A DNA stretch of 64,000 bases, taken from contig NC_088786.1 of the NCBI RefSeq assembly GCF_949628265.1, forward strand, positions 20,915,681 to 20,979,680, read 5' to 3'. This document shows, in pieces, positions 2,685-55,268 of the stretch. Under the pieces are notes generated by a model that was not told the DNA's origin, made no database searches, and was given only the letters and a program-made list of their open reading frames with translations. The stretch comes from Cloeon dipterum (taxonomy: Eukaryota > Arthropoda > Insecta > Ephemeroptera > Baetidae). How positions within the stretch are numbered: the first letter of the stretch is position 1; each line of letters begins with the position of its first letter. The position numbers were made by a program, and so were the translations under genes.

Positions 2685-3922
2685 ATGACGAATTTTTCCG
2701 CTACCGCTGTCCCTATACCCCCTACTCTCGACCACCGTTTGAACTGCCAATATTCATTGCACCGCCTATTTTCCTATCCGGATGATTTTGAAAAAAAGTA
2801 TTTTATCGATCCGCAGCAATTGGCAGAGGCAGGCCTATACTTCAGTACTGGCAAACTGTTCTGCTTTTTTTGCAATTATGAAATTAGCTTGAATAATTTA
2901 AGCGAATGGAAAAAACTGGATGCTACTAATATTTTGGAGAAAATTAACAGACCAGAATGCACCCTGACTACAGAAAATTCGCCAAACGTACCGATTGGAA
3001 ACATATTGACGTCAATTTGAACTACAAATTCGAAGCGCATAGGTTGTACTCCCTGCTGAAGAAGAAGGATTGGAAATTCGTGAACGCACGCGATTTAGCC
3101 AAGAGCGGATTTTATTACACGAAGGACGATGACAACTGTCGGTGCGTGTTTTGCAACCTGGAGGTTCGCGGCTGGGAAGAAGGGGACACTGCCGACGGCG
3201 AGCACCACCTTTGGAATCCAAATTGCCCTTTTCTCAAAGACCCGACCAGTGTTTTTGATGTACCAATCGGCCAAGAACAAACAACGCAAGTCGATTGTTT
3301 GAATGTACCACAGTCTGGGTCTAGACCGACTTCAATCAACCCCTTTGCGCCGTGGAACGAGCTCTCCAAGTACCACCGCTGCTTGAAACTGAAAGTGTTG
3401 CAGTATATTTTGAATGCGTCGATATTGAACATCTTTAGCTGGTCGCAGCCAAAATATCGGCAATACTCAAGCTCCACGAGTCGAATCAACAGCTACAAAA
3501 ATTGGCCACCAAGCCTGGAGCAGACACCTGCTGAGTTGTCCCGTTCTGGCTTTTATTATACTGGTATGAGCGACAAGGTCATCTGCTATCACTGCGGCCT
3601 TGGTTTGAAAAATTGGGCGCTTGGAGACGAGCCTGCGTCGTTGCACGCCAAATGGAACTCGGCCTGCCCGTACCTGCTGATGTCTAAAGGACCGCAATTC
3701 GTGGACGACTCTCTCCATTCGAAGAAATCTGAACGGAAATCGCAAAAAGTCGTTGCACGAAATTCTGCAGCGTCCAATCTTAGTTGTAGGAAGTGCGACA
3801 TGCACCAAGTAGCAAAGATTAGTCTGCCATGTGGCCATGCCCAGCTTTGTCAGTATTGCGATGAAGATTTTTGCTTGTCCTGCCAAGAAAAAATTGTAGG
3901 CGAAGTCTCGATCTATTTTTAA
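2685..3922 (+). CDS. Inhibitor of apoptosis protein, three BIR domains plus RING, with one frame break
   Basis: An intronless coding region in two overlapping frames: 2685 to about 2996, then about 2993 to 3922. BIR1 (about residues 20-100) keeps the first Cys pair (CFFC) but has lost the zinc His. BIR2 (CVFC, Gly-Trp-Glu-Glu-Gly-Asp, His and Cys retained) and BIR3 (CYHC ... His ... Cys) look complete. The C-terminal RING has CRKC, PCGH, CQYC and a final CLSC, ending about where IAP RINGs end. Such proteins bind caspases through BIR domains and ubiquitinate them. The frames meet near GGAAACAT at about 2998, where BIR1-BIR2 linker homology (VPIG then HIDVNLNY) passes from one frame to the other, as after loss of one A. 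A read error, a recent null allele or frameshifting would all fit. An AATAAA lies at 3982. The paralogue at 49561 shares the BIR1-BIR2 part. Next to it on the right, beyond one small gene, is the caspase-NACHT gene. Confidence 0.85.
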
Positions 3923-6834: not shown

Positions 6835-9800
6835 TCAACTTGCATGCAGATTGTTCCACTGTTCGAACGATTCCCAGGTAATCCTGTTAAAATCAGAAAC
6901 AAAAGGAAATTAGGTATAAAATAAACCTTACTGAGACAAATCATCTTTGGCTTGAATGTAGCCACGCATGGTGAGAACAGAGAATACGTATTTTGACACA
7001 GAAACGTCAGAGTTTGAAACGTCGTAGATGGATCGTTCAACATTTTCAGCAATTGGCACTGAAAAATTGTTATTTGAAGTAAGATGAAAAGGAAGCATCC
7101 CAAAAGAATCGGCGATATTTCCGTCGGCTCCACATTTAAGTAGCAACTTCACCACCTGCTTGTGGCCCATTTCCGAAGCTAAGTGCAGGGCAGTTCTTCC
7201 CAATTTATTCTGCAGATTAACGTCCATCCTCTTGCTCACGAGTCTGATGAAATCCCCGTCTCCCACGTGCGACGCCCAGTGCAAAACGGTCCAGCCGTCC
7301 TTGTTGGCGGCCGTCAAATCGGAGCCTTCCAGCACCAAGTAGCGCCGCACACTGGCGTCCGAGTTTAGCACGGACAGCTGGAGGGGCGTCCAGCCGTGTT
7401 TGGTCTTGCTCTCGATCAGTTCGGACTTAAATCGCGTGAGGACGAGAACCACCGTGCGCAGCCCGGCGTACCTGGCCGCGTAGTGCAGGGCGTTCCAGCC
7501 GTCCTTGTCGGCGGCGAAGGGGTTGATGCCTTGTTGCCGCAGCAACAACTGCACCACCTCCGCGTGGTCGCCCTCCGCGGCCAGAATCAGTGGTGTCCGA
7601 CCGTGGCTCGTGTTGGCGTTCACGTCGTAAAAGTCGAGCGACAAAAAATACTCAACGTTGGCCAGGATGCCGTGGCTGCAGGAGAAGTGGAAGGCCGTCC
7701 AGCCGCCGAGCGCGACGACGGTGCCGAGGTCGGCGCCGTGCTCCACCAGGCAGCGGCACACGTCGGCGCTGTCGTTGCACGCTGCAATGTGCAGCGGCGT
7801 CAGCACCATGTCCCGCTTCCAAGAGTCGCGCGGACTGGGGTTCAGCTTGGCGCCGTGCGAGATCAGCAGACGCACGCAGGCTGCGTTGCCGGCCACGATG
7901 GCCACCTGCAGGGCGGTCTTGTTGTTTTTCGAGATATTGGCGCTCAGGCCGTTCTGCAAGAGCAGTTCCAGCATTTGCTCGTGGCCCTGTTTGACGGGCG
8001 TCAGGGGCAAATAGGAAGTTTTGTGGCCTTGCAGAACTTTCGCCACGTCGGGGGATGTGGTTAGAAAGTCGTCGAATAATTGGCAAAAGTTGCTCCGGGC
8101 AACTTGCTGGATCAGAGTCCACAGCTCCTCCGCTGGCCGCTTTTGCACCACTTGCTCTAGCAAGTTCATCTGCAAAAGTTCCCGGCCGATGGTCTCACTG
8201 CTTTTGCACGCTGATTTCAAAATTGAAAATCCATCTTCAATGAGAAACTTTCCAGATTGGCTGTCGGCAAAAGAAACAAACCTTTTCGCCGCTTGGAACA
8301 AATTGTAATGCGCCTCGCACACAATCGTCTCGACAAAATTTCTGCTCATGTTGCCTCTGATGAATTTCTCGACGCCTTCATTTTCTGAGTGGGCGACGAA
8401 TGCGTCAAAAAATATCCTGCTTTGTCTCAAAGTTTCTTGTTCAAATAGCGGAATGGTGGATGTACTATTCTCTGCAACTTCAAACACAAAAAGTTGAGCT
8501 AACAGGAATTCCGCCAGTGTTTGGTGCACAAATCTGTAGTTCTTTTCTCCACGTATAGTCGCAATACCGGTGTTGTTTATCTGATTGATTTTCTCATCAC
8601 CGAAATCGGATATATCGTTTTCCAGTAAAAAGCACCGGGCAAACGATTGGAGCAGTTTTATCCTCTTCTTTACCTTCGATTTGAACAGTTTGTTGTTTTC
8701 GTCGTACGACTCTTTTTGCGTCAACGCTTCTTTAACTTTCTTCTCGACGACGTTTCTATAAATTGCGAACAAATTAGTGTCGTCTCCTAAGGCCTGACTC
8801 GCAATTAGAGTGAGGTGAAAAGGGTTTTTCAAAATGTCTTTCGCTCCGACGCTTTCAAACTTCTCCAAAAGTTCACTGCACTTATCATGGTCCTTTTTCT
8901 CGGAATTCATTTTCAGCAGCTCCAACTGCATCGGTTTGTCAAACGGCGCTATTTCCACTTTTCTAACCTGCACTCCTTTCAGCGCCGCTAAAATTTCCTC
9001 TTCTTCCTGCGGCCTCGTAGCGATCCAAAGGGGTATCTTACACGAGGATATTTCCTTAATCAAAGCCAAGGTTTTTTTTCGGAAATCAGGGCAAACTTCG
9101 TCGAAACCATCCAAAAGTATGACCGCGCGCCTCTCGCTGAGTATGTTCCTAATTTCGGAGTGGAGAAATAATTGCTTGGCGTTGTGCAACAGTCCCTCCG
9201 CGGACAAGTCATCGTCTAAATCCAGATATTCGTATTCGTCAATCATCTGTATGCGAAAAAACACCTTTTTGCCGAGTTCTTTCCTCAGGTGGTATTCCAT
9301 TTCACAGAACAGTGTCGATTTTCCCATTCCCGGAGGCGCACTGACTAGCCAGGTGCAATTGAGATCACTTTGCAGCTCTCTAAGACATAATGATTTGAGT
9401 TGTCGAAATGACAAGACGCGCTCAACGCTTTCCTCGTCATCAATGGAAATGCGCGTTGTCACTACAAAATTAGGGGGAACAAATCGTCGATGCCAAATTG
9501 GAAAATCTAAAAGATGCGGCAGTGTTGTGACAATTTGCGGCCTCGTTCCTGACTTTGCTTGCTTTCCCTTTTCAAGTCGCAACACACCTATCGAGATTTC
9601 CTGCAAACTTTTGCCTCTTCTCAGTAGCGGATTTTGCAGTATATCTGCCAACTTTTCTTCACCATCTGCAATATTAATTAAAAATTTATTGTGTTTATTG
9701 AACTTCTTAAAATCATTGAATATAATGTACCGTCATTTGGCAAAACAAGAACAAACCAACCACTGTGGTTTGTGGCGCTGATCGATAGCCTCCGTGCCTT

Positions 9801-11502
9801 CAAGAATTTTGTCATTTATTTTTCCATTAGTTTTTATTTTAAATTTAACTAACCCGCGTGATAAAGTCACAAGAAGCGCTCTGGTGTACGAAAAAGAACA
9901 ATTTCGGTCTGCCAATCCATTTTTCATTATCAGGTCCGATAAATTTTTGCACTAAATTGCCAATCGAGATCTCGCTTCCTTCCACTTTGACGCAAACCTC
10001 AGACGCTTTATTCACAAGGAGTTTTGCAAAATAACAAATAGCAATGCAGCCTATATCAGTCTCTTCTTCATCCCAGGCTGAAATAAAATTCTTATTTTTA
10101 TTCTATCAAAAATTTGGAAAAATTATTACCTTTGCGGCTTAAGCTTTCTAAATTTTTAGCAGAGTTGTGCAAAATGCAGGTTTCAAAGTCCAGATTTTCT
10201 CTGAAAATTCGCTCCAAATTCTCCACTTGTTGATTTTGTTCATCGCACACCACTGCTGCCCACCGCCCGCGAACAGGCAAACCACTGCTGGACAGCCATG
10301 TGAAGAAACATTCATTTCTCTTCGCCTTTTCTTTTCTATCTGGGCATCTAAAAATTATCATTTTCACATTAAACTGCATATCTTTTTTCAATTAAATATA
10401 CTTTAAAACTGTGAACTCTCTGTGCGGCGAAAACTTCACTTCAGGCGATTGACCAACTCCGCCGGAATTTTCGTGGATTTTGTTCTGGACGCAAGTTAGT
10501 GCAACTTCTAAGGCAGTGTCTTCGCACAATCCGTCGAGAATTTCGCACAAAGCCTGCACTAAAGCAGTTCCATTCTCATCATCTCGTTTCGCCCTTGTTG
10601 CTAGATTAAAAAAATTAATTAAATAATTTTAAAATTTAATTAAATGTTGAGGTAGTACTTTCTACTGTTGAGAAAACCAAAATAAAATTGTCCTTTTGCG
10701 GGTGGTTCGTAACCCGACATGAATTTTGATTGTCCAATTGCAAGGGGGACTCTGGATCGTGCACTTCGTCTACTATTTCTCCGCGGCAGGGCTAAAGATT
10801 GAAAATTGAATTTTTTTTAATTGGTAAATAATCACGCCAATGAAATTGATTGAATATTTTGTTTAAACTTACTCCAAAAAACACCAACTTTAGTGTTGAT
10901 TCAAACTGCTGCAGTGATCGCAGTGACTCCAGCACTTGGAAAGTGGTAAAATATTCATATTTTGTCGGTGAGGCTCGGTGATCAGTGTATATTTTCCCGT
11001 CTCTGCCTCCATGTGATAATATCACAAGAATTAACACAGATGGAACCTCTGCAAAATCTTGGTTAAAACTTATTTAATTTCAGATTGAAAGGGACTACCA
11101 GTTGTGTCAAAAAGCTTTAAAACTTGATCGTCATTGGAAAGCGTTGCAAGCAAAGTTTCCTTCTTGGGCGACCGCAGATGGCAAAATTGGCAGTTGCGTC
11201 TTGACTCAAAAGTCAGCTGAAGCCGCTCTAAATCAACTTCATTGCCTTCCCTTATATTTTCCAAGTCGTGCTCAAAGTTGTAATGTACAACCAACACACA
11301 GACGCTGAATTTTAAAATTTCAAATAGTTTAAGAAATCAATTAAAATAAAATTTGAAGTTTACCTTTCAGGGTAGCCAGCCACTTGATCTCCATCAAAGA
11401 AACCAAATTGAGATGAATGGCTTCCTATAATTTAATAAAAACGGTAATGGTTTCTCATATTAGTGAGAGTGCGTTTGATTAATTTTTACCATTCGAAACC
11501 AT
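6835..11502 (-). CDS. Caspase / pseudocaspase / NACHT / ankyrin NLR-like protein
   Basis: Eleven exons: 11502-11490, 11424-11364, 11304-11099, 11048-10873, 10791-10659, 10600-10402, 10347-10130, 10077-9854, 9797-9731, 9665-6932 and 6883-6835. They total 4080 nt, so 1359 residues, with every phase consistent. Residues 1-262 are a caspase without a long prodomain: LSHGG gives catalytic His106, and LVFFG joined to PCRGE gives Cys154 (family QACRG). Residues 263-432 are a second caspase fold lacking both catalytic residues (YFAK for SHG, HQSAS for QACRG). The NACHT domain has Walker A APPGMGKST (about 543-550), Walker B ILLDGFDE (about 615-622), sensor WIATRP (646-651) and a winged-helix HQTLAEFLLA. 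About nine ankyrin repeats span roughly 989-1297. A 16-residue terminal exon follows. NACHT modules oligomerise on activation, so a model of sensor plus built-in protease is natural. The fold of the second caspase is inferred from spacing. Confidence 0.9.
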
Positions 11503-13749: not shown

Positions 13750-16700
13750 ATGAGCACCAAACCGAACGTGAGGGTCAAAATTACGAAAGAGAGATGAAGA
13801 ATTTAATTTTGTTAAAATTGAACTTAGGTTTTGGAATGTCGAGTGTGCGAGGACGTGTTCGGTCCGAGCGGCGAGAGGGTGCCCCGACTGCTGCACTGCG
13901 GACACACCGTGTGCCATTCGTGCCTTTTGCGCCTTCCTCTGCAGCACGGCTCTGTCCTCTGTCCCTTCGACCGGCAGCCTACTCCCACTGGTAACATACT
14001 AAATTTCTCCTAGCCATATTTTAATCATCGGCTTTTACTAGGAGACAGTGGAGTTTGGGGGCTGAAAAAGAATTTTGCACTCCTGGAGCTGCTGGAGCGA
14101 CTTCAGGTTGAGCGCCTTCCTTCCACATCGACAGCCACGGCTACGGGTCTTTCAAGGCTCTTGGACGGTGCTCTTCCAGATAGACAGGTCACCAATATGG
14201 AGCATATATTGGCATTAAACTAATTTTGAAGTTGTGGATGCTAAATCATCATAAGACCTAGCGGATTCAGAAAATTGCAAGCAGTCTAAAACACTTGACA
14301 TTAAATTTATTTATTACATAGAACTCACAACTAAAAAATGATTTGTTCAGTCAGTATCAGTAAATTAAAAAATGTTAGATTTTTTAATATCTTTTAATTT
14401 TTCAAGCCGGTAGAAAGTGTCAACTTTCACAATTCACAAAAAATGAAATAGCTCGCTTTACGCTGAGGAAGCTGCATTATATTAAAACTGGAAACAATTA
14501 AAACAATGATTTTTGTGCTAAATATTTTTGGTGCTATTGTGAAATACATGTTTTTCAATGAAAAATCTTTAGTTTAGATGTGTGACGAAGATGAATCGCA
14601 CGAGGCAGTTGTCTACTGCGTGGTTTGCGGCTCTCACCTTTGCGAGGAGTGCTCTGAACGCACCCACGCGACTAGGACACTTGGCAGACACCGGAGGGTG
14701 CCACTGTCTGAGAAACCAAGGGAGCGTGCAAAGTGCGACTTCCACCCCTCGCACGTGGCAGAATTCGCTTGTCTGGAGCCAGCTTGCCAGCAAAATCCAC
14801 TCATGTGCTTCGTCTGCAAAGATTATGGCCGGCACAAAGGACACCAGGTTTGATTTTTCCTTTTTTATTCAAACTAGGTTTTGAATTTTAAAAATTTCAG
14901 CACGGACTTGTGGAGGTGGAAGCAGAAGGTTTGCGACAGAGTGTTTTGGGGGCCGTCTCAAACATGAGGCAGTTCATGGATGCTTTGGGAGAATCTGTCC
15001 ACAAAATAGGTATGAAGTCAGATGGCTTTTTATGGGAAGAAAATAAATTTTTTGCTGCTGTAGAGGGCTCATTGCAAAGGATGGAAGGAGGAACGATAGA
15101 AGATGCCCGCAACCGAGTTCGAGCGCACTTCCAGCAGCTGAGGGAGAGCCTCGAGCAGCAGGAGAATGCCGCTTGCACTGCCCTTGAGGCGCATACAAGA
15201 GAGAGGCTTTGTGCCCTCAAGCAGCTGCAAGAGGATCTCACTGTTACCATGTCTCATGTAAGTTGTTTGTGCTCTCTCTTTGATTTTTCTTGTTAAATGA
15301 AGTGAAATTTTCAACTTTTCAAAAATAATTTTTGATATTTTAAGAACTAAAAAATGTATTATATAAAATTAATCAATGAATCGCAAAATCCAATTTTAGG
15401 TGGCAGCAGTTTGTGTTCAGTGCAGTCAGTTGTGCGCCCAAGACGACTCACGGCTGCTACTGGCAGGCCAAGAACTGAAAGAAGCACTCACAGCTGTTGA
15501 ACAGCAGCAACAGCAATTTGCAGATCTTCCTCTGGAGCAGAGACATCCTGATTCTGCTGTTCCAGTCACCTTTACAAAGGTCTCTATTTAATTTAATGAT
15601 ATCTTAGAATCCATTTAAAAAGGGTTCACATGTTTTTTTTAAACAGCAAGAAAAGTCTGATTTTTCCAGATGATGGAATTAAATTTTAACTAATATTTAC
15701 TCATTTTTTGCTTAGCAAAAAAGCGAGTTTTGTGTCAAGAGTTTTTTAAATTATATAATTAATTGATTTGGAGTTGTTTCAAATATAATTGTTAACCTCT
15801 CTTTTACCAAACCATGTTTCGCACAGGACAACAGAGTGCACATGGGGCCGCGAATGGAGATGCGCGTGGTCACCCTTGGACTAGACGGGGCGGGAAAGAC
15901 GTCCATCCTGTTCAAACTGAAACAGGACGAGTTTGTCACAGCCACTCCCACCATCGGTTTCAACGTTGAGAGCCTTGAGCTGCGAAGTGACCTTCAGCTG
16001 ACCGTCTGGGACGTGGGCGGCCAGCCCAAGTTGCGACCCCTTTGGAAACACTATTACCTCAATACTCAGGTACAGAAATTGTGAATCATCAAAGGTGCAC
16101 GTTAATGAGGTGTCAAAAAACCTAGGCTGTGGTCTTTGTGGTGGACTGTGCTTGCCGAGATAGACTGCCCGAGGCTCAGAGCGAGCTGGCCAGATTGCTG
16201 GCTGAGAAGGAACTTAAGGACGCTGCTTTGCTCATTTTGGCCAACAAACAGGTACATTTTTCAACCCTTAGTTTTTTTCTTCGAAACAATATTATAAATA
16301 TTTTTTTTGAAGATTTCAATTTGTTGAGAATAAACAAGTCGTTAGCTTATCCCATGCGCAAATTATATGGGATATCTGGAGATCAGTGCTGAGGAAATCA
16401 TCCATAACTTATTCATTGAGAAATTACTCATAGTTTCATTAGCCATTATGTAGACAAAAAAATTATTTGACGTTTTTCAAGGTGCTTAACTCAATAAATT
16501 AATTTTTCTCCAACGCGAATTTCTACTCTTTGCAAAATTTCCTGAAAATGTTCGAGTGCAGTGATTTTTCTCTTTCATCAATGAAATTAACAAACTTTTA
16601 CATTTAAGGACCAAGAAGGCAGTATGTCGGCCGAGGAGCTGTGCCAACAAATGGTGTTGCCTAAGTTGTGCTGCGGCCGAAGCTGGCACTGCCAGGCCTG

Positions 16701-18480: not shown

Positions 18481-21400
18481 TTATTTCACGTCGATCCAGA
18501 GATTTAAATTCAACTTTGGGAAATTTGAGCACAAAGTGAGGGCGTTCTCATCCGTCAACGACTCCATGGCTCGTGGTTGCATCTCAGTAGTCTCGCTATT
18601 TTCGCAAAACAGCGACGACAGTGACGTTTTTCTAATTTCTTCTAATTGAGCTAAAACCAAAACGACTTGATTTGTGAAAGGTGAAACTTTGCCCTATAAA
18701 ATTACACACCTTGCGTAAAGGCTTGAGGCGCTTCAGGCGTTTCGTACCAAAACCGGTCGGCCCTCTTTAGTCGCAGGAACTGTTCAGCGATAACGCACGT
18801 GCCAGTCGGCCCCAAAATCCCGCTGCTATTCAACGGTTTTTCGGAGACCAAGCCCGTGAATGGGTCAATGTCGTCCACAGAATCGTAAATTAATTTTAGT
18901 CTCTCCACCGTTTCTGCATCCATTGTGCTCAAAAGGTCGTCGAACGTTTTTGGACGGGCGCCCCCGCACAGTTCTCTCCAAAGTGGATAGCCAGGCAAGC
19001 CGTGGTCTCTGCCTCTTTGAATGTTCAAGGTGACGAGGTCGAGGCCGCAAGGACTAGATTTCGTTTTAAACAAATTTCCTTGCAACTGGAAAATTAAAAT
19101 AATAATTTTTTTATAACAACTCTTATGATTAGAAAAATGTTAAAATGTTAAGTTAAATTTTGTTAAAAAGAGTTTAAAAATAGACAAGTGCAAAACAAGA
19201 GTAAAAAAGTCAATAAATTAAATCACACGTGTTTTGTTTAGCTAGAGCTTTAAACAAATAAAAATTTAAAGAATATATAGCATGAAAAACTAAAAGTTTC
19301 CTTATGTCTGTCGGCAGTATTTTTTATGCGTGGTTACCTCGGACGTAACAGCACTGCCAGGTCCTTTAACTTCTGATTCTGAGATGCCGCGCAACGAATC
19401 CTCTACAAATTCATTTTGGTACATGCCGAAAGGATTAAACAGCGTTTCGTGCAGTTTGAGCGTCCTGTTGACGACACCAATACGATCAATCAGTGCCAAC
19501 TGACCCTGTAATAAAATTTAATGAAATTTTTGTAAATATTTTCTACGCTCAAAACTCACCTGAAGCAACGTGTGGCCGAACCGGAACGCGCACGAGGCAA
19601 ACTCATTTGTGATTTGCGGATCGACAGACGCGTCGTAGGCCTCAAAAAAGCCACTCGCCTTTGGAAGCACATCCAATTTCTCTGCTAACTCATAGCCTGG
19701 GACAAAAATATAACTTTAGGGCTGCGAAATTAAGTTGGCATTTTTTGTGGCAAAACAGTCTACTATTTTAAAACTGATTTTCAAAGCAAAATAGTTTGGT
19801 TTCCAATTGGTTAAAAACACAAGTTTTGTTACCAATTCAGAAGTATTTTACTTAATTAAAATAGCAAATTTTATTTAAAAAAAAACATGATGCCGATGCC
19901 AGTTCGAATATTTAATTTTCTTTCTCCTCATAAAGAATAAAAATTGTCTAATATAGGTCAAAATAAACCGACTTTCTTACTCTCGAAAACATTTATTTAC
20001 CAAACTTGAGAAGAGAGCAATACATATTTTGGGCTTTAAATTCCCACATGCTGGGATTTGAAATTTTATAAACAAAATCTCTTACGTCCTTAATTTCGGA
20101 TTTTGAGCCGATTTAGGGCCACGTATTATGATTTTTAGAATGGTTCTAATTTCTGATTCGTACTTTTTTGATGGTCCCGTAAGAAGTGGAAGCTCAGTAT
20201 GAGAAAAGAAGATTTTTAGAATTCACAGCTCTAAATATTACTTAATTTACTCAATCATTTACCCAGTACAACGGGAAGAAATTCATTGTAGTGAATGTGC
20301 TGCAACTGGGCAATGACAATTTTCCTCGCCTCTTGGTACAGCACCTCGTCCATCCACTGCGGATTCAGCTTCTTCAGCGCTGTCGCCAGCCTGTTGTGCT
20401 GCCTGGAGAAAATGAGGTGCAGCGTCGTCAGCGGCAGGTTCTCGTTGGAGCGCGTGTCACCGGTCTTGAAGCAAAAGCGTCCCTTTGCCACCTGTTCGGC
20501 CCGATTGCAGCCGTCGTTGGAGGTGCGGTCGATGGGCAGCAGCTCGATGCCGCTCGAGGTCCACGAGCGGTGCAGGAGGCCGCCAGAAAAGGCCCTCACC
20601 TGTGACTCTAATTCTTTGTTGGCGCCGTAAATCGTCGATCCGTCGATGAACGGCGTCACTTGGTTCAGGTTTTCTCTCGGTCCTGCAATGCAAAATGTAA
20701 CCCTAGCAGTGTATTTTTCTTAAGTCTCCATTCGAGATTAAATTACGCAATCACTTCTTTGGGAGGTATCAATTTGTCTAATTAAAAAATTTGCAAAAGC
20801 AAAGGTGCTTTACAAAACATTTTCTGAAATCTAAGGGTTGATTTGCTGTCTTTCAATTACCCTAAAATCTAGGTAAGTGGTTAAAAGCTGGAAATATATG
20901 CTGAATATTGCTGAATATATTTCTAGTCAACAACACCAACATAGTTATGTGAAAATCAAGACAGTGATGCGACTGAAAAGATATTTAGGCCAATTAAAAC
21001 ATTGCAAGTGGCCTCCCTTTTTAAAACCTGGCAATATTTATTTTTTGAATCATTTAAAAAAATGAATATCTCAGTGCTACTTAAAATTGTATCGGCTTGG
21101 TTCTCGTGCGATTTTTCTTTTCGTTCTAAAATACAGTTTTTATTACCAAGGGTGCAAACTGGTGCTGGCGCGGATCGAACAAAATCGGTACAGGTCAAGT
21201 TGTATTTGCCGTAGAGAGGATCGTCAGGCGGAATGATCACTGGATAGCACTCGGGGTGTTGCCACTCGGTGTTGCAACAAGTGATAGCTTGACCGTCCGC
21301 ACCTAGTATTTACGAATCATGATTTTTTTGTGACAGTTATCTAAGCAAAATTCCTCACGTTTGCTAAGTGCCGTGGCCGTGATGTCGTGATCAATAAATT

Positions 21401-49560: not shown

Positions 49561-50199
49561 ATGCATCTCTTGCCACGAGCGCTGTGTGACAAGCTGAAGT
49601 TTGAATTCGCGCTGCACCGCCTGTTCTCCTTTTATTCCTTGCGCTCCTACCCTGAGGTGCTGCCGTTTAAAGCTGAAACCCTGGCTCGGAAAGGACTTTA
49701 CTGCGTAGACTCTTCCACCGTTCGCTGCAAATTCTGCGACTTCTCCATTCTTATCGACGCCAACCTGAAAGCCTGCGTGGAACGCGAGCACCCTGTGTGT
49801 CGAGACGAATCTTTCGCAACGGACGTCCCCATTCCTGAACACCTCAACTTGAACTACGAGGCGTGCAGACTATACACGGTGCTGAAAAGGGAGTGGAAAT
49901 TTTTCACGCCGCTCGATTTGGCGTCAGACGGCTTCTATTACACCGGCAAAAGAGACTTGTGCATGTGCCAATATTGTTTCCTGGAGGTCGAAGGTTGGGA
50001 GGACGGAGACACGCCCAAAAACCAGCATCAACACCACAACGATTTGTGTCCTTTTCTGTGCAACAAATCGAATGTGCAGAATGTCAGGATCGGAGATGAG
50101 GAAGCAGGCTGCTTGCACGACGCGATCGGCCAAGAGTACCAGGGGTCGAAGCAGATGACTGATGCGGAGATTGCTGATGCCATCGCAAAGAAAGTGTAA
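49561..50199 (+). CDS. Short IAP with two BIR domains and no RING
   Basis: An intronless ORF of 212 residues. BIR1 (about residues 14-80; CKFCDF) lacks a normally placed zinc His, as in the paralogue at 2685. BIR2 (about residues 98-165) is complete: DLASDGFYYTG, CQYC, GWEDGD, then His and Cys. The tail after BIR2 is short and ends in MTDAEIADAIAKKV, so BIR3 and RING are absent. A protein like this could bind a caspase but not ubiquitinate it. It shares VPI...HLNLNYEACRLYTVL with the linker of the first IAP. It lies 1.2 kb upstream of the second caspase gene on the same strand. Confidence 0.9.
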   Translation: MHLLPRALCDKLKFEFALHRLFSFYSLRSYPEVLPFKAETLARKGLYCVDSSTVRCKFCDFSILIDANLKACVEREHPVCRDESFATDVPIPEHLNLNYEACRLYTVLKREWKFFTPLDLASDGFYYTGKRDLCMCQYCFLEVEGWEDGDTPKNQHQHHNDLCPFLCNKSNVQNVRIGDEEAGCLHDAIGQEYQGSKQMTDAEIADAIAKKV

Positions 50200-51411: not shown

Positions 51412-54400
51412 ATGAATGGAGCAAAACTTGGATACTTTGAGGATGGAGAAGTCGCGAGAAAGTATGAAGTAATATTTATTATAGACCCGCGCAAAGAAAA
51501 GAAAAATATAATATCTTGAATATTTAATTTATAGTGTTATAGTGCTAGTGACGTTCTACAAATTTGAAGATGATGAGAAAAATTTTCGATTTGGAAACAG
51601 TGAAGACTTGAAAATGCTGCGACACTCATTTGAAAAATTAAGAAATTGCCACTACCATGAATTTTCGCCTTCAGCAGATGAATTACTTGAAACAATTTCG
51701 GACAAAGAAGCACTTTTAGCCTTGTTTAATAACGATAATGGTACTTATTCCTATCCAATTAGAACCATATAATTAAAGTACTACTGCCGTCTGTTTAGAA
51801 ACTCTAGCTGCCTTGCCAAGTGTATTTATCCTCTACGTTCTTTCGCATGGAGGAACGGATGGAGTGATCCACACGGATCATTTCGATCATGATTTACAAC
51901 AATACAAGAGCTTTAATACAAAAGACGTTTTAGATGGCCTGAAGAAGTTAGACCACGCCCAAGAATGTCTCAAATTAGTTTTCTTTGGAGTAAAATTAAT
52001 TTTAATTTATTTATATAAAACTATATATAGCATTTTTTCGTAGCCATGTCGAGGTGATGCTGAAGAAAACGTCACTGCATCGGTGCAAACGGAAAACAAT
52101 CTCAACACGTGCACTTTTTCACTCTGCTCGCAGCAGCACAATCAAATACTGGTCTACTCCACGGTTGAAAGTAAGAAAAACAAAGAATGAGAGTATTTTT
52201 AAAAACAGTTACGGTGTGATATTCTCCAGCCACTCGAGCGAGAAGGTTCCACAAAGGCTCATGGTTGGTGACAAAAACGTGCGAGACGTTGGACAACATG
52301 ACGCAGGACGAGAGCCTCGTCGTTTTCCTCACCAGAGTCCAAAGGAAAATCCACGAAGCATCGATAAACACGATAAATCACAGCGCGTGGGGACAAACGC
52401 CGGAGTTTAAAATCTTTTCCCATCGCAAATTCACACTTTCCAAGTGAAATGCTAAGTGCACCAAATTAATTAAAAACTTTCAAAGTCGTTTTAATTAAAG
52501 ATCTTCCGCGAACGGAGGTTCTGATAGCAGTGGAAACGCCAGCAAAACATTTATGTCATCAATTTTGCGGCCGGATTTCTTCAAGTGGCAGTCAGACGAG
52601 GGCGAATGTGTGAGGAAGAGAAGGGCAGCAATTTTTAAAGACGGTGCAGCAGATAAAAATGTCAAGTATTTGCAAAACGCTCTGAGCAAAAATTTGTACT
52701 TCGCCACCACGCTGCACCAACTGGATACTACATCAATGAAGGAATATTTTGCAGAGAGTAATTAGTTTATCTTGTTAAAAACCTTTTTTAATGAATGTTT
52801 TTAGTTAACGGCCCTGAGAGTGCGTATGGGTGCGTCCTGACGTGCGTAATGGCACCGATAAGTGAGAATGAAACTGGAGAGATCTGCGTTCAAATTGGAA
52901 GCTTGCAAAAGCCGATTGCCGAGATTGTGCAGAAATTCATGAGCCCAAAAAACGCCCAATGGGCTGGGAGACCGAAAATATTCATGTTCATGAACCAGGC
53001 GAACATGTACGACGATATTATCGTAAACATTTCGAATGATTTCGGTACATTTTAAATTTATAACTATTCCTCAATTAAGAGAGCCGAGCAATTTCAAATA
53101 AATGCGACAAACAGTAGTGGCTGGCTAGTGTGCGTCTTTCCAAAAGAAGGTAATATGCTGAAAAAATTAAAAAAAATAATTTTTAAGTAATTTTCATAAT
53201 TTTAGAAACAATCATGAAGCTGGTTAGTATTTTGGAAACAAACGAACTGAAGCACAAATCTAGTCTGCAAGAAGAACTAGTGTCAAAAATAATCTCCTGC
53301 CCAGAAGAGGGTGCAATGCTCGATTCCACATTGCAGTATTTACTGGATTTTCCTGATTGGCCTCTCGAATTCTCAAAGCCGAGTTTCAAATTGAAGGTGG
53401 CTGATGAGAGCGAGCAGTACTTATCCTTTGAAGAGCTGCTCATGCATGGAGCTAAAAAAATAAACCTAAAAATGCTGACCTCGGACGATGAAAGCGCGCT
53501 GTTAGATGTCACGAGGGAAATTGCGCATCTCTACAAAAAGTATTTCTCTCAGTTCGGCTCCGAGGTGGTACACGTGGCCTTGCCAGGGCTGAAAAACTTT
53601 TTCAAAAGGGCGGCGTTGAAAAAGTCTGATTTGCAGTTGTCGCATTTGATAGCTTATTCTTCAGATCTTTTTGAAGAGAAAGTTGATGAGCTCATAAGAA
53701 GCAAGAGCATCGTTGCTATTGTCTCTGGCTTGGAAGAAATGTCGTCCGAGAGTAAGAATTTGTTTTTCAACTGCCTCAAATCAATCACCCAATATAAAAA
53801 TCACGTCTGGATTGCTACCCAGCCATATCTCGGAGACGAAATCCTTGCGCTTTTCGACGGAACTGGAGTAGATGTGGAAAAAATTTCCTTTACCGCTATT
53901 TCTAAAGTAATAGAAAAGCCATCCCAGTCACCGACAACGAGAGAAAGATCAGTTGAGGAATATTTGAGTAACACTCTGGAGAACAGGCTTAAAACATTTG
54001 CCTTGCACGCAGTATCGTAAGAACAGCCAATAAAATAGGTTTCTTGATTTAGAAAATAATTGTTTCAGGCAAACGAGTGCCGAATGGCAGGAAGTGACCA
54101 ACAATAAACTTCCGGCAAACGCTTTTCTTGCGGGCCACTTTTCCACCTACCCAATGTACGTGTGCAGGGCTAAGCACGATGGCAATCTTATACCAGGAAG
54201 AGCTGTCCCTGGTCTGAATTTGACTTCGTTTGCTTGGAACGAGATCGAAATTCGCTCCAAAGAAATATACGAGGTCCTGATTGGCGAGGATTTCCACTGG
54301 AAGCGTTTTGACTTTGACAAACAAGTCCCGGACAATGCTGTCGTTGGCGGCCACACGCAAGAGGGAAAACTCATTTTCGTCGGCAAAGTGAAATACGAAG

Positions 54401-55268
54401 GGCTGGAATATATCGGCAAGGTGACCTGAACAAGCATTTTTGTATTTTGGAAGAAAATAGTATTATTTTTTCAGATTCACACACAACTCAAATGTTGTTT
54501 TGTCGCTTTTGCGAGCAAGGAAAACAGCTTCACAGAATGCGAAATCCTCTTAAGGTTTTAATTTTTTGTTCCTGACTTTCAAATTTATCGAAATAAATTT
54601 ATAATGTACATTTTTCAGAGGCGTCTTGGTGCAAGATGCATCAGATGATTTGGAAGAGACCAGTAAAAAAATAGAAAATGAATGGGCAAGAGTAACCAAG
54701 GGAAAAATTCCAGAAAATGCCTTTCTCGCTGGCATGGACAATTCCGACCGAAAAATGTACATCTGCAGAGCGCCTTGCAAAGGCGAATTGATTCCTGGCA
54801 AAGCAATTCCGGCTTTAGAGCGGGCATACATAAGCTACGCCGGTTACGAATATTGCTCAGAAGAGTATGAGGTTTTGGTCGGGGACAAATTCGTCTGGTG
54901 CGCATTTAACTTCAAACAGAGTCTACCCTCCGGCGCTGTCGCAGCAGGGCGGACCGCCTACGGAGAAACCCTTTACGTTGGCAGAGTCAAACACGATGGG
55001 GTTGATGTCGTCGGTAAGGTAAAGGCAGTTCAATATTTAAACGCGTCTCCATCAGAAAATTTTACTAGTATGTATATAATAACTGATATATAGTAAAAAA
55101 TAGAACGTGGAAGAGAGGAAGTTCTAATTTTTCTTTTGTTCGTTTTAACGTGTTAATTTAAAATTTCAGATTCATGTTTCTCATGGGCTTTGTTACATCC
55201 CTTACAATGGAGACGAAGTTGCGTACTGTACTTGTGAGATTCTTCTTAGAAGAAAAACTGTCATCTAA
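51412..55268 (+). CDS. Caspase / pseudocaspase / degenerate NACHT / DM9 protein
   Basis: Thirteen exons: 51412-51461, 51535-51740, 51799-51989, 52044-52170, 52230-52443, 52501-52757, 52805-53044, 53084-53149, 53206-54016, 54069-54420, 54475-54554, 54619-55018 and 55170-55268. They total 3093 nt and 1030 residues. Residues 1-262 are a caspase with LSHGG (His102), FFG joined to PCRGD (Cys151) and the substrate-pocket GSW. A second caspase fold follows without catalytic residues (VMAP for SHG; FMNQANM for QACRG). Residues 451-720 align with the NACHT region of the 6835 gene (LLDFPDW; VWIATQP), but Walker A is replaced by VALPGLKN, Walker B by IVSGLEEM, and the sensor Arg by Gln. The C-terminus is two DUF3421 units, four DM9 motifs (LPANAFLAG, PMYVCRAKHDG, YEVLIG; VPDNAVVGG and so on). 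DM9 proteins of other invertebrates bind mannose and microbes. A poly(A) signal is near 55359. Confidence 0.9.

Follow-up and report, generated by a model that had tools for sequence, protein, structure and literature searches.

A predicted caspase–pseudocaspase–NACHT–ankyrin protein and its gene family in baetid mayflies

Can a single insect gene encode both an intracellular NACHT receptor and the caspase that it would activate? The question is raised by a gene on the minus strand (11502-6835) of a 64,000-nucleotide stretch of the Cloeon dipterum genome (NC_088786.1, positions 20,915,681 to 20,979,680), which is referred to here as the window. The gene encodes a predicted protein of 1359 residues in which a caspase, a pseudocaspase, a NACHT domain and ankyrin repeats follow one another in this order. 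A 2024 survey describes the NLRs of Arthropoda as having no N-terminal effector domain, and considers inflammasomes possible in several invertebrate phyla, Arthropoda excepted (PMC11508797). Drosophila and C. elegans are stated elsewhere to have no NACHT (PMC2575513). We propose that this one mayfly gene encodes a receptor of the STAND type with an executioner built into it, which would act as an adaptor-free analogue of an inflammasome. The probability of this reading is estimated at about 0.6.

Domain architecture of the predicted protein

The gene model consists of 11 exons separated by GT-AG introns of 48-81 bases (Table 1). All junctions are in phase and the only stop codon is the terminal one. 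The exons were joined by hand from the genomic sequence, and the exon 6 donor after 10402 was placed by the match to the relative P0001. The original prediction for this locus had claimed eleven in-phase exons coding for 1359 residues, an intact caspase site, a second and catalytically empty caspase fold, a NACHT domain with Walker A, Walker B and sensor Arg, and ankyrin repeats. The rebuilt splice model, which contains no internal stop, bore out the exon structure, and a search with caspase, NACHT and ankyrin profiles, suggested at the time as a check, returned matches to all three families. The Pfam run used a 1354-residue version of the model, in which exon 6 ended at 10417 and was five residues shorter. 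It placed Peptidase_C14 at residues 26-253 (E 2.9e-22, 79.9 bits against a cut-off of 21.4), recognized the NACHT domain barely above its cut-off (E 1.4e-6, 28.7 bits against 26.7) and detected the ankyrin repeats with an E value of 2.6e-57.

The first caspase domain retains its catalytic residues at the predicted positions, His106 in LSHGG and Cys154 in PCRGE. Among the aligned family domains with a letter in the respective column, the His is kept in 73 of 74 and the Cys in 72 of 73. Residue 43 by alignment, whose counterpart in caspase structures is an S1 arginine, is R in 67 of the 69 domains with a letter there. This favours Asp at P1, and the caspase would most likely cleave after Asp. 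In a sequence comparison with the PDB, the 60 matches listed out of 216 are animal-type caspases.

The second caspase domain (D2) was not detected by Pfam in this protein. A profile of nine second domains was compared with all PDB sequences and gave 52 distinct matches at E ≤ 1, all of them caspases. The best match was an ancestral caspase-6 large subunit (4.5e-7), followed by an ancestral caspase-3/6/7 and then by caspase-8 (2e-4). In the profile alignment, GKPKIFF of the family falls on the strand preceding the catalytic Cys. The column of the catalytic Cys itself contains Q, V, T, G, K, L or a gap, and never Cys (74 of 77 rows printed), and the Cys-site motif is absent from the second domains in 73 of 73 family proteins. 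A His-Gly pair occurs in 15 second domains within a stretch ending in GP before GKPK, off the catalytic place; in one further domain, that of P0062, it lies near the start. Judged from these alignments, D2 is a genuine caspase relative without a catalytic site, in line with the empty fold originally described.

The Walker A motif GMGKST, the Walker B motif LLDGFDE and the Arg of TRP were all found in the NACHT domain, as predicted, and are conserved among the relatives. No leucine-rich repeat (LRR) family was present among the 11 Pfam families listed. Neither CARD, PYD, DED nor DD was found at the N-terminus among the Pfam families listed up to E 1; the caspase occupies that place. Since the protein has ankyrin repeats and no LRR, it is regarded as NLR-like and not as a canonical NLR. 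NLRC4 is among the best Foldseek matches of the relative P0005.

The gene family in Cloeon and Neocloeon

The best match of the protein is P0001, a predicted protein from another Cloeon dipterum source with 94% identity. The protein P0002 of Neocloeon triangulifer (LOC132199609) is 52% identical across 99% of the query and contains the same domains, with identities of 61% in the caspase, 55% in the pseudocaspase, 59% in NACHT and 57% in the ankyrin repeats. These two predicted proteins indicate that the gene is not a chance reading, and the near-full-length Neocloeon relative implies that the fusion is older than the split between Cloeon and Neocloeon. The same domain order, for which a search of other mayfly genomes had been proposed, is present in P0002. 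The relatives are labelled hypothetical, uncharacterised or NACHT domain-containing in their sources. With both sources assigned to Cloeon dipterum, an identity of only 94% may hint at cryptic species.

The protein searches yielded 73 family proteins. Neocloeon has at least 30 different family gene labels among them, 25 of the 30 with both PF00656 and PF05729. In searches with 24, 36 and 64 hits, no caspase-NACHT protein was found beyond Cloeon and Neocloeon; the remaining hits in the latter two belong to ankyrin or NACHT families, none with PF00656. The searches rely on shared short words, and each scored about 8000 candidates with the most shared words, so that distant relatives may be missed.

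A search of the genome (190,111,064 bases in 10 contigs) with PF05729 revealed at least 101 NACHT places, including that of the present gene (106 of 119 candidates scored). At 89 of the 101 listed places a family caspase lies within 5 kb on the 5′ side on the same strand. As controls, the 3′ side was scored, with 2 such cases, and the opposite strand, with 0. The caspase matches were pooled from those listed, including 13 of the 36 in one search, and the co-occurrence counts are lower bounds. Twelve NACHT places have no listed caspase within 5 kb, one of them with a D2 match. As estimated from these matches, the family in Cloeon dipterum numbers about ninety genes, which raises its significance beyond the single gene first seen. 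A search for NB-ARC led to two places, both overlapping listed NACHT places. A gasdermin search gave no match, and its controls were equally silent, which makes it uninformative. The locus C3:14326300-14332300 was considered as a retrocopy that would prove a joint mRNA and was rejected: its parts are in one frame by arithmetic, but caspase and NACHT lie in separate open frames.

The original prediction also held that the effector is fused directly to the sensor. The pseudocaspase starts in exon 7, and its last part lies in the exon that encodes NACHT, which links both halves of the gene. Along with the independent gene predictions in two mayfly genera and the same-strand co-occurrence, this supports, at the level of gene sequence, a fusion of the caspase and NACHT-ankyrin parts in one gene.

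Conservation was assessed at the loci with the 20 best NACHT scores, which are no random sample. The motifs LSHG, PCRG and Walker A are found in this order on one strand in 19 of these loci, and none of them is found in the 20th. The second-domain motif is present in 18 of the 19 ordered loci, and the Walker B motif, as written, in 15. Among the 73 family proteins, some of which are partial models, 69 keep both SHG and CRG, 64 have the Walker A pattern and 62 have the Walker B pattern. In all 19 motif-bearing loci the codon before PCRG ends in AG, which is expected if an intron ends there, as it does in the present gene. The ratio of nonsynonymous to synonymous substitution rates (dN/dS) was calculated for close paralogues from the same 20 loci, in pairs with dS between 0.05 and 1.2. 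The median was 0.23 for the His exon (39 pairs), 0.43 for the Cys exon (35 pairs), 0.24 for D2 (62 pairs) and 0.29 for NACHT (37 pairs). Values of 1 or more occurred in 3, 2, 0 and 0 of these pairs, respectively. By this measure, the dead domain is under no less constraint than the live one.

A tree of the caspase pair was built from the 66 of 75 sequences in which both domains are long enough. In this tree 34 Cloeon sequences form a species-pure clade (support 0.95) and 20 Neocloeon sequences form another (0.79). The present gene groups with P0001 and then with P0002, adjoining the pair of P0003 (Cloeon) and P0004 (Neocloeon). It is placed by the tree in a small lineage common to both genera, beside two separate species-specific expansions, to which most members belong.

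Proposed mechanism and alternative explanations

The following course of events is proposed. The ankyrin repeats would keep the receptor closed and detect either a ligand or a host protein that has been disturbed. Upon sensing, the NACHT domain would bind ATP and oligomerise, which would gather the N-terminal caspase domains and switch the caspase on. The dead caspase may pair with the live one in the same chain, in the fashion of cFLIP-L and caspase-8, giving a ready dimer interface. The active caspase would cut itself or other targets, and the cleavage would result in cell death or an immune signal without CARD or an ASC adaptor. IAP proteins probably restrain the caspase. The core of this proposal, the NACHT-driven activation of the fused caspase, is quite probable, more so than the full receptor reading; that every mechanistic detail holds together is unlikely. 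Extended to the family, the proposal describes an adaptor-free inflammasome repertoire of the baetids. It would comprise about ninety receptors of one chain each in Cloeon, and Neocloeon would have a set that arose independently. Each receptor would have a caspase and a built-in cFLIP-like partner, the sensor ends (ankyrin, DM9) would be exchangeable, and the IAP genes would have expanded in parallel. The odds of this wider picture are about even.

Several observations weigh against the proposed receptor. The fusion is predicted from gene sequences, and the immune role is argued from analogy and from family dynamics. A D2 match is found beside just 41 of the 101 NACHT places (one query; 91 of 410 candidates scored). 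The comparison of the first-domain profile with the D2 profile gave no similarity, and D2 is called a caspase because the PDB profile search matched caspases. In the fold comparisons of relatives the first caspase fills the list of matches, and the D2 fold is unmatched by itself. The predicted structure of the caspase pair of P0094 has a predicted template modelling (pTM) score of 0.87, which reflects a fixed arrangement of both domains only and does not equal caspase-type pairing. The active-site motif is G/A-P-C-R-G in nearly all members instead of QAC(R/Q/G)G; the present gene has GPCRG, which departs from this pentapeptide and has only the C-R-G core in common with it. At the position of the second S1 Arg, 49 of the 74 domains with a letter have R and 20 have T. 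With GP or AP in place of the QA of QACRG and a variable second S1 Arg, the specificity may vary within the family.

The dead caspase might serve as an autoinhibitory cap or scaffold and not as an activating partner, which would be compatible with the receptor reading. D2 is located between the caspase and NACHT and is constrained as much as both, and the modelled arrangement of the P0094 pair would suit a cap as well. cFLIP-L provides a precedent for an activating pseudocaspase (PMC11121540), and a purely inhibitory or structural role is considered tentative and rather unlikely. Less probable is that the caspase is an autoprocessing switch, which would cleave itself or an adjacent subunit of the ring and thereby free a NACHT-ankyrin or caspase fragment to signal. 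This would suit a fused protease equally well, and conservation is poor in the linker that separates the caspase domains, where 8 of 13 residues agree with P0001 and 2 of 13 with P0002; caspases, however, usually both process themselves and cleave others. Slightly more doubtful again is a non-immune role in development, the germline or genome-element conflict, with caspase-NACHT and IAP genes co-expanding against each other. The many copies in species-pure clades are in agreement with such a role, and so are the 102 BIR matches found genome-wide, which include a dense cluster on contig C3. However, the present gene has a Neocloeon partner with low divergence in all domains, and expansions of this kind are common among immune receptors. 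That a tandem caspase gene and an adjoining NACHT-ankyrin gene were read as one is very unlikely: the deposited models P0093 and P0094 hold the caspase pair without the full NACHT part and gene predictors may share an error, but the NACHT exon also codes for the last part of the pseudocaspase, full-length relatives exist in two genera, and the 89 of 101 co-occurrences have a fixed orientation.

Neighbouring genes and known systems

Table 1. Exons of the caspase–NACHT gene and other family features in the window
Feature	Position	Strand	Content
Exon 1	11490..11502	-	start codon, MVSN
Exon 2	11364..11424	-	N-terminal stretch
Exon 3	11099..11304	-	active caspase begins (residues from 26); S1-pocket Arg43
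Exon 4	10873..11048	-	catalytic His106
Exon 5	10659..10791	-	opens at PCRG, with catalytic Cys154
Exon 6	10402..10600	-	small-subunit half of the active caspase
Exon 7	10130..10347	-	linker, then pseudocaspase start from ~10307
Exon 8	9854..10077	-	pseudocaspase; GRPKLFFFVHQ at the place of the caspase catalytic Cys
Exon 9	9731..9797	-	pseudocaspase
Exon 10	6932..9665	-	pseudocaspase end (to ~9481), NACHT and winged helix, ankyrin repeats ~8037-7063
NACHT match PF05729	8914..9336	-	Walker A 9330-9313, Walker B 9117-9097
Exon 11	6835..6883	-	C-terminal end, stop codon
Second family member	51412..55268	+	13 exons, 1030 aa: active-type caspase, pseudocaspase region, NACHT remnant, DM9 repeats

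The caspase of the second family member in the window contains SHG and PCRG. DM9 repeats (E 5.4e-70) take the place of the ankyrin repeats, and the NACHT-like stretch, which has no Pfam match, appears by eye to have lost both Walker motifs. Two BIR genes were also noted. The gene 2685-3922 (+) has two BIR stretches and a RING match below the cut-off, and is located about 2.9 kb from the end of the caspase–NACHT gene; the gene at about 49561-50199 (+) has one BIR stretch and lies about 1.2 kb upstream of the DM9 member. The BIR matches of the genome fall several to a gene, and their dense cluster spans C3 7.77-7.88 Mb. A parallel expansion of the caspase inhibitors (BIR/IAP) is possible. At C4:8635944-8639210 (+) a NACHT and two BIR matches, each with a 1288-aa open frame, are in one frame by arithmetic, and the sequence likely encodes a NACHT-BIR protein. 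Three further open frames resemble parts of known proteins by eye: 14578-14853 (+) looks like B-box/TRIM, 15767-16392 (+) like an ARF GTPase and 18702-19139 (-) like a haem peroxidase.

No description of an insect caspase-pseudocaspase-NACHT-ankyrin architecture was found in the open-access library searched, which excludes most subscription journals; the original remark that it was undescribed from an insect agrees with this search. The words NACHT, NLR, caspase and ankyrin do not occur in the main text of the Cloeon genome paper (PMC7250882). The accessible portions of PMC4986451, PMC11797021, PMC13133943, PMC5094078, PMC8260672 and PMC6321704 name no animal caspase-NACHT fusion; one of them reports 35 Pfam domains found with NACHT in cnidarians, only some of them named in that portion (PMC8260672). 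According to two other papers, metacaspase-NACHT-WD40 proteins are widely distributed across bacteria (PMC3501461) and bacterial caspases are linked to STAND ATPases (PMC8195603).

The observation at this locus is confirmed, its interpretation is supported as regards architecture, and the mechanism is plausible. NACHT receptors with a fused effector are already known, and the mayfly form is a variant of them, found in an insect lineage that has many NACHT receptors to which the effector protease is fused. Should transcripts and activity confirm this, the statement that arthropods have no such receptors would change. Three questions become directly accessible to experiment: can oligomerisation of the NACHT domain by itself activate a caspase, does a pseudocaspase within one chain set the activity of its caspase, and which intracellular receptors may insects have used before Toll, Imd and RNA interference (RNAi), or alongside them? 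The gene studied here belongs to a small lineage that includes a Neocloeon partner, and it would be well suited as a first subject.

Several known systems share parts of this organization. For an NLR of the sponge Dysidea avara, the legend of the architecture figure names CASc, a caspase; the NLRs of this sponge are LRR-type, and the accessible text gives no layout, count or pseudocaspase (PMC12909245). The LRR-caspase and TNFR-caspase hybrids of amphioxus likewise fuse a sensor directly to a caspase in an animal, with neither NACHT nor a pseudocaspase mentioned for them in the available part of the source (PMC2575513). Bacterial metacaspase-NACHT-WD40 proteins combine a protease and a NACHT switch on one chain with C-terminal repeats (PMC3501461). 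The mayfly protein differs from them in its sequence matches to animal caspases, in the second, dead caspase and in the ankyrin or DM9 end. As in caspase-8 with cFLIP-L, an active caspase appears together with a catalytically dead one, and caspase-8 of the cFLIP-L complex is the first listed match of a relative; in the mayfly protein both domains are in one chain joined to a NACHT receptor, and their pairing is suggested by analogy. The vertebrate NLR inflammasome receptors (NLRC4, NOD2, NLRPs) likewise place a NACHT ATPase between an effector part at the N-terminus and repeats at the C-terminus, and NLRC4 and NOD2 are among the best Foldseek matches of a relative. Compared with them, the mayfly protein has a caspase in place of CARD/PYD, ankyrin repeats in place of LRR, and an additional pseudocaspase.

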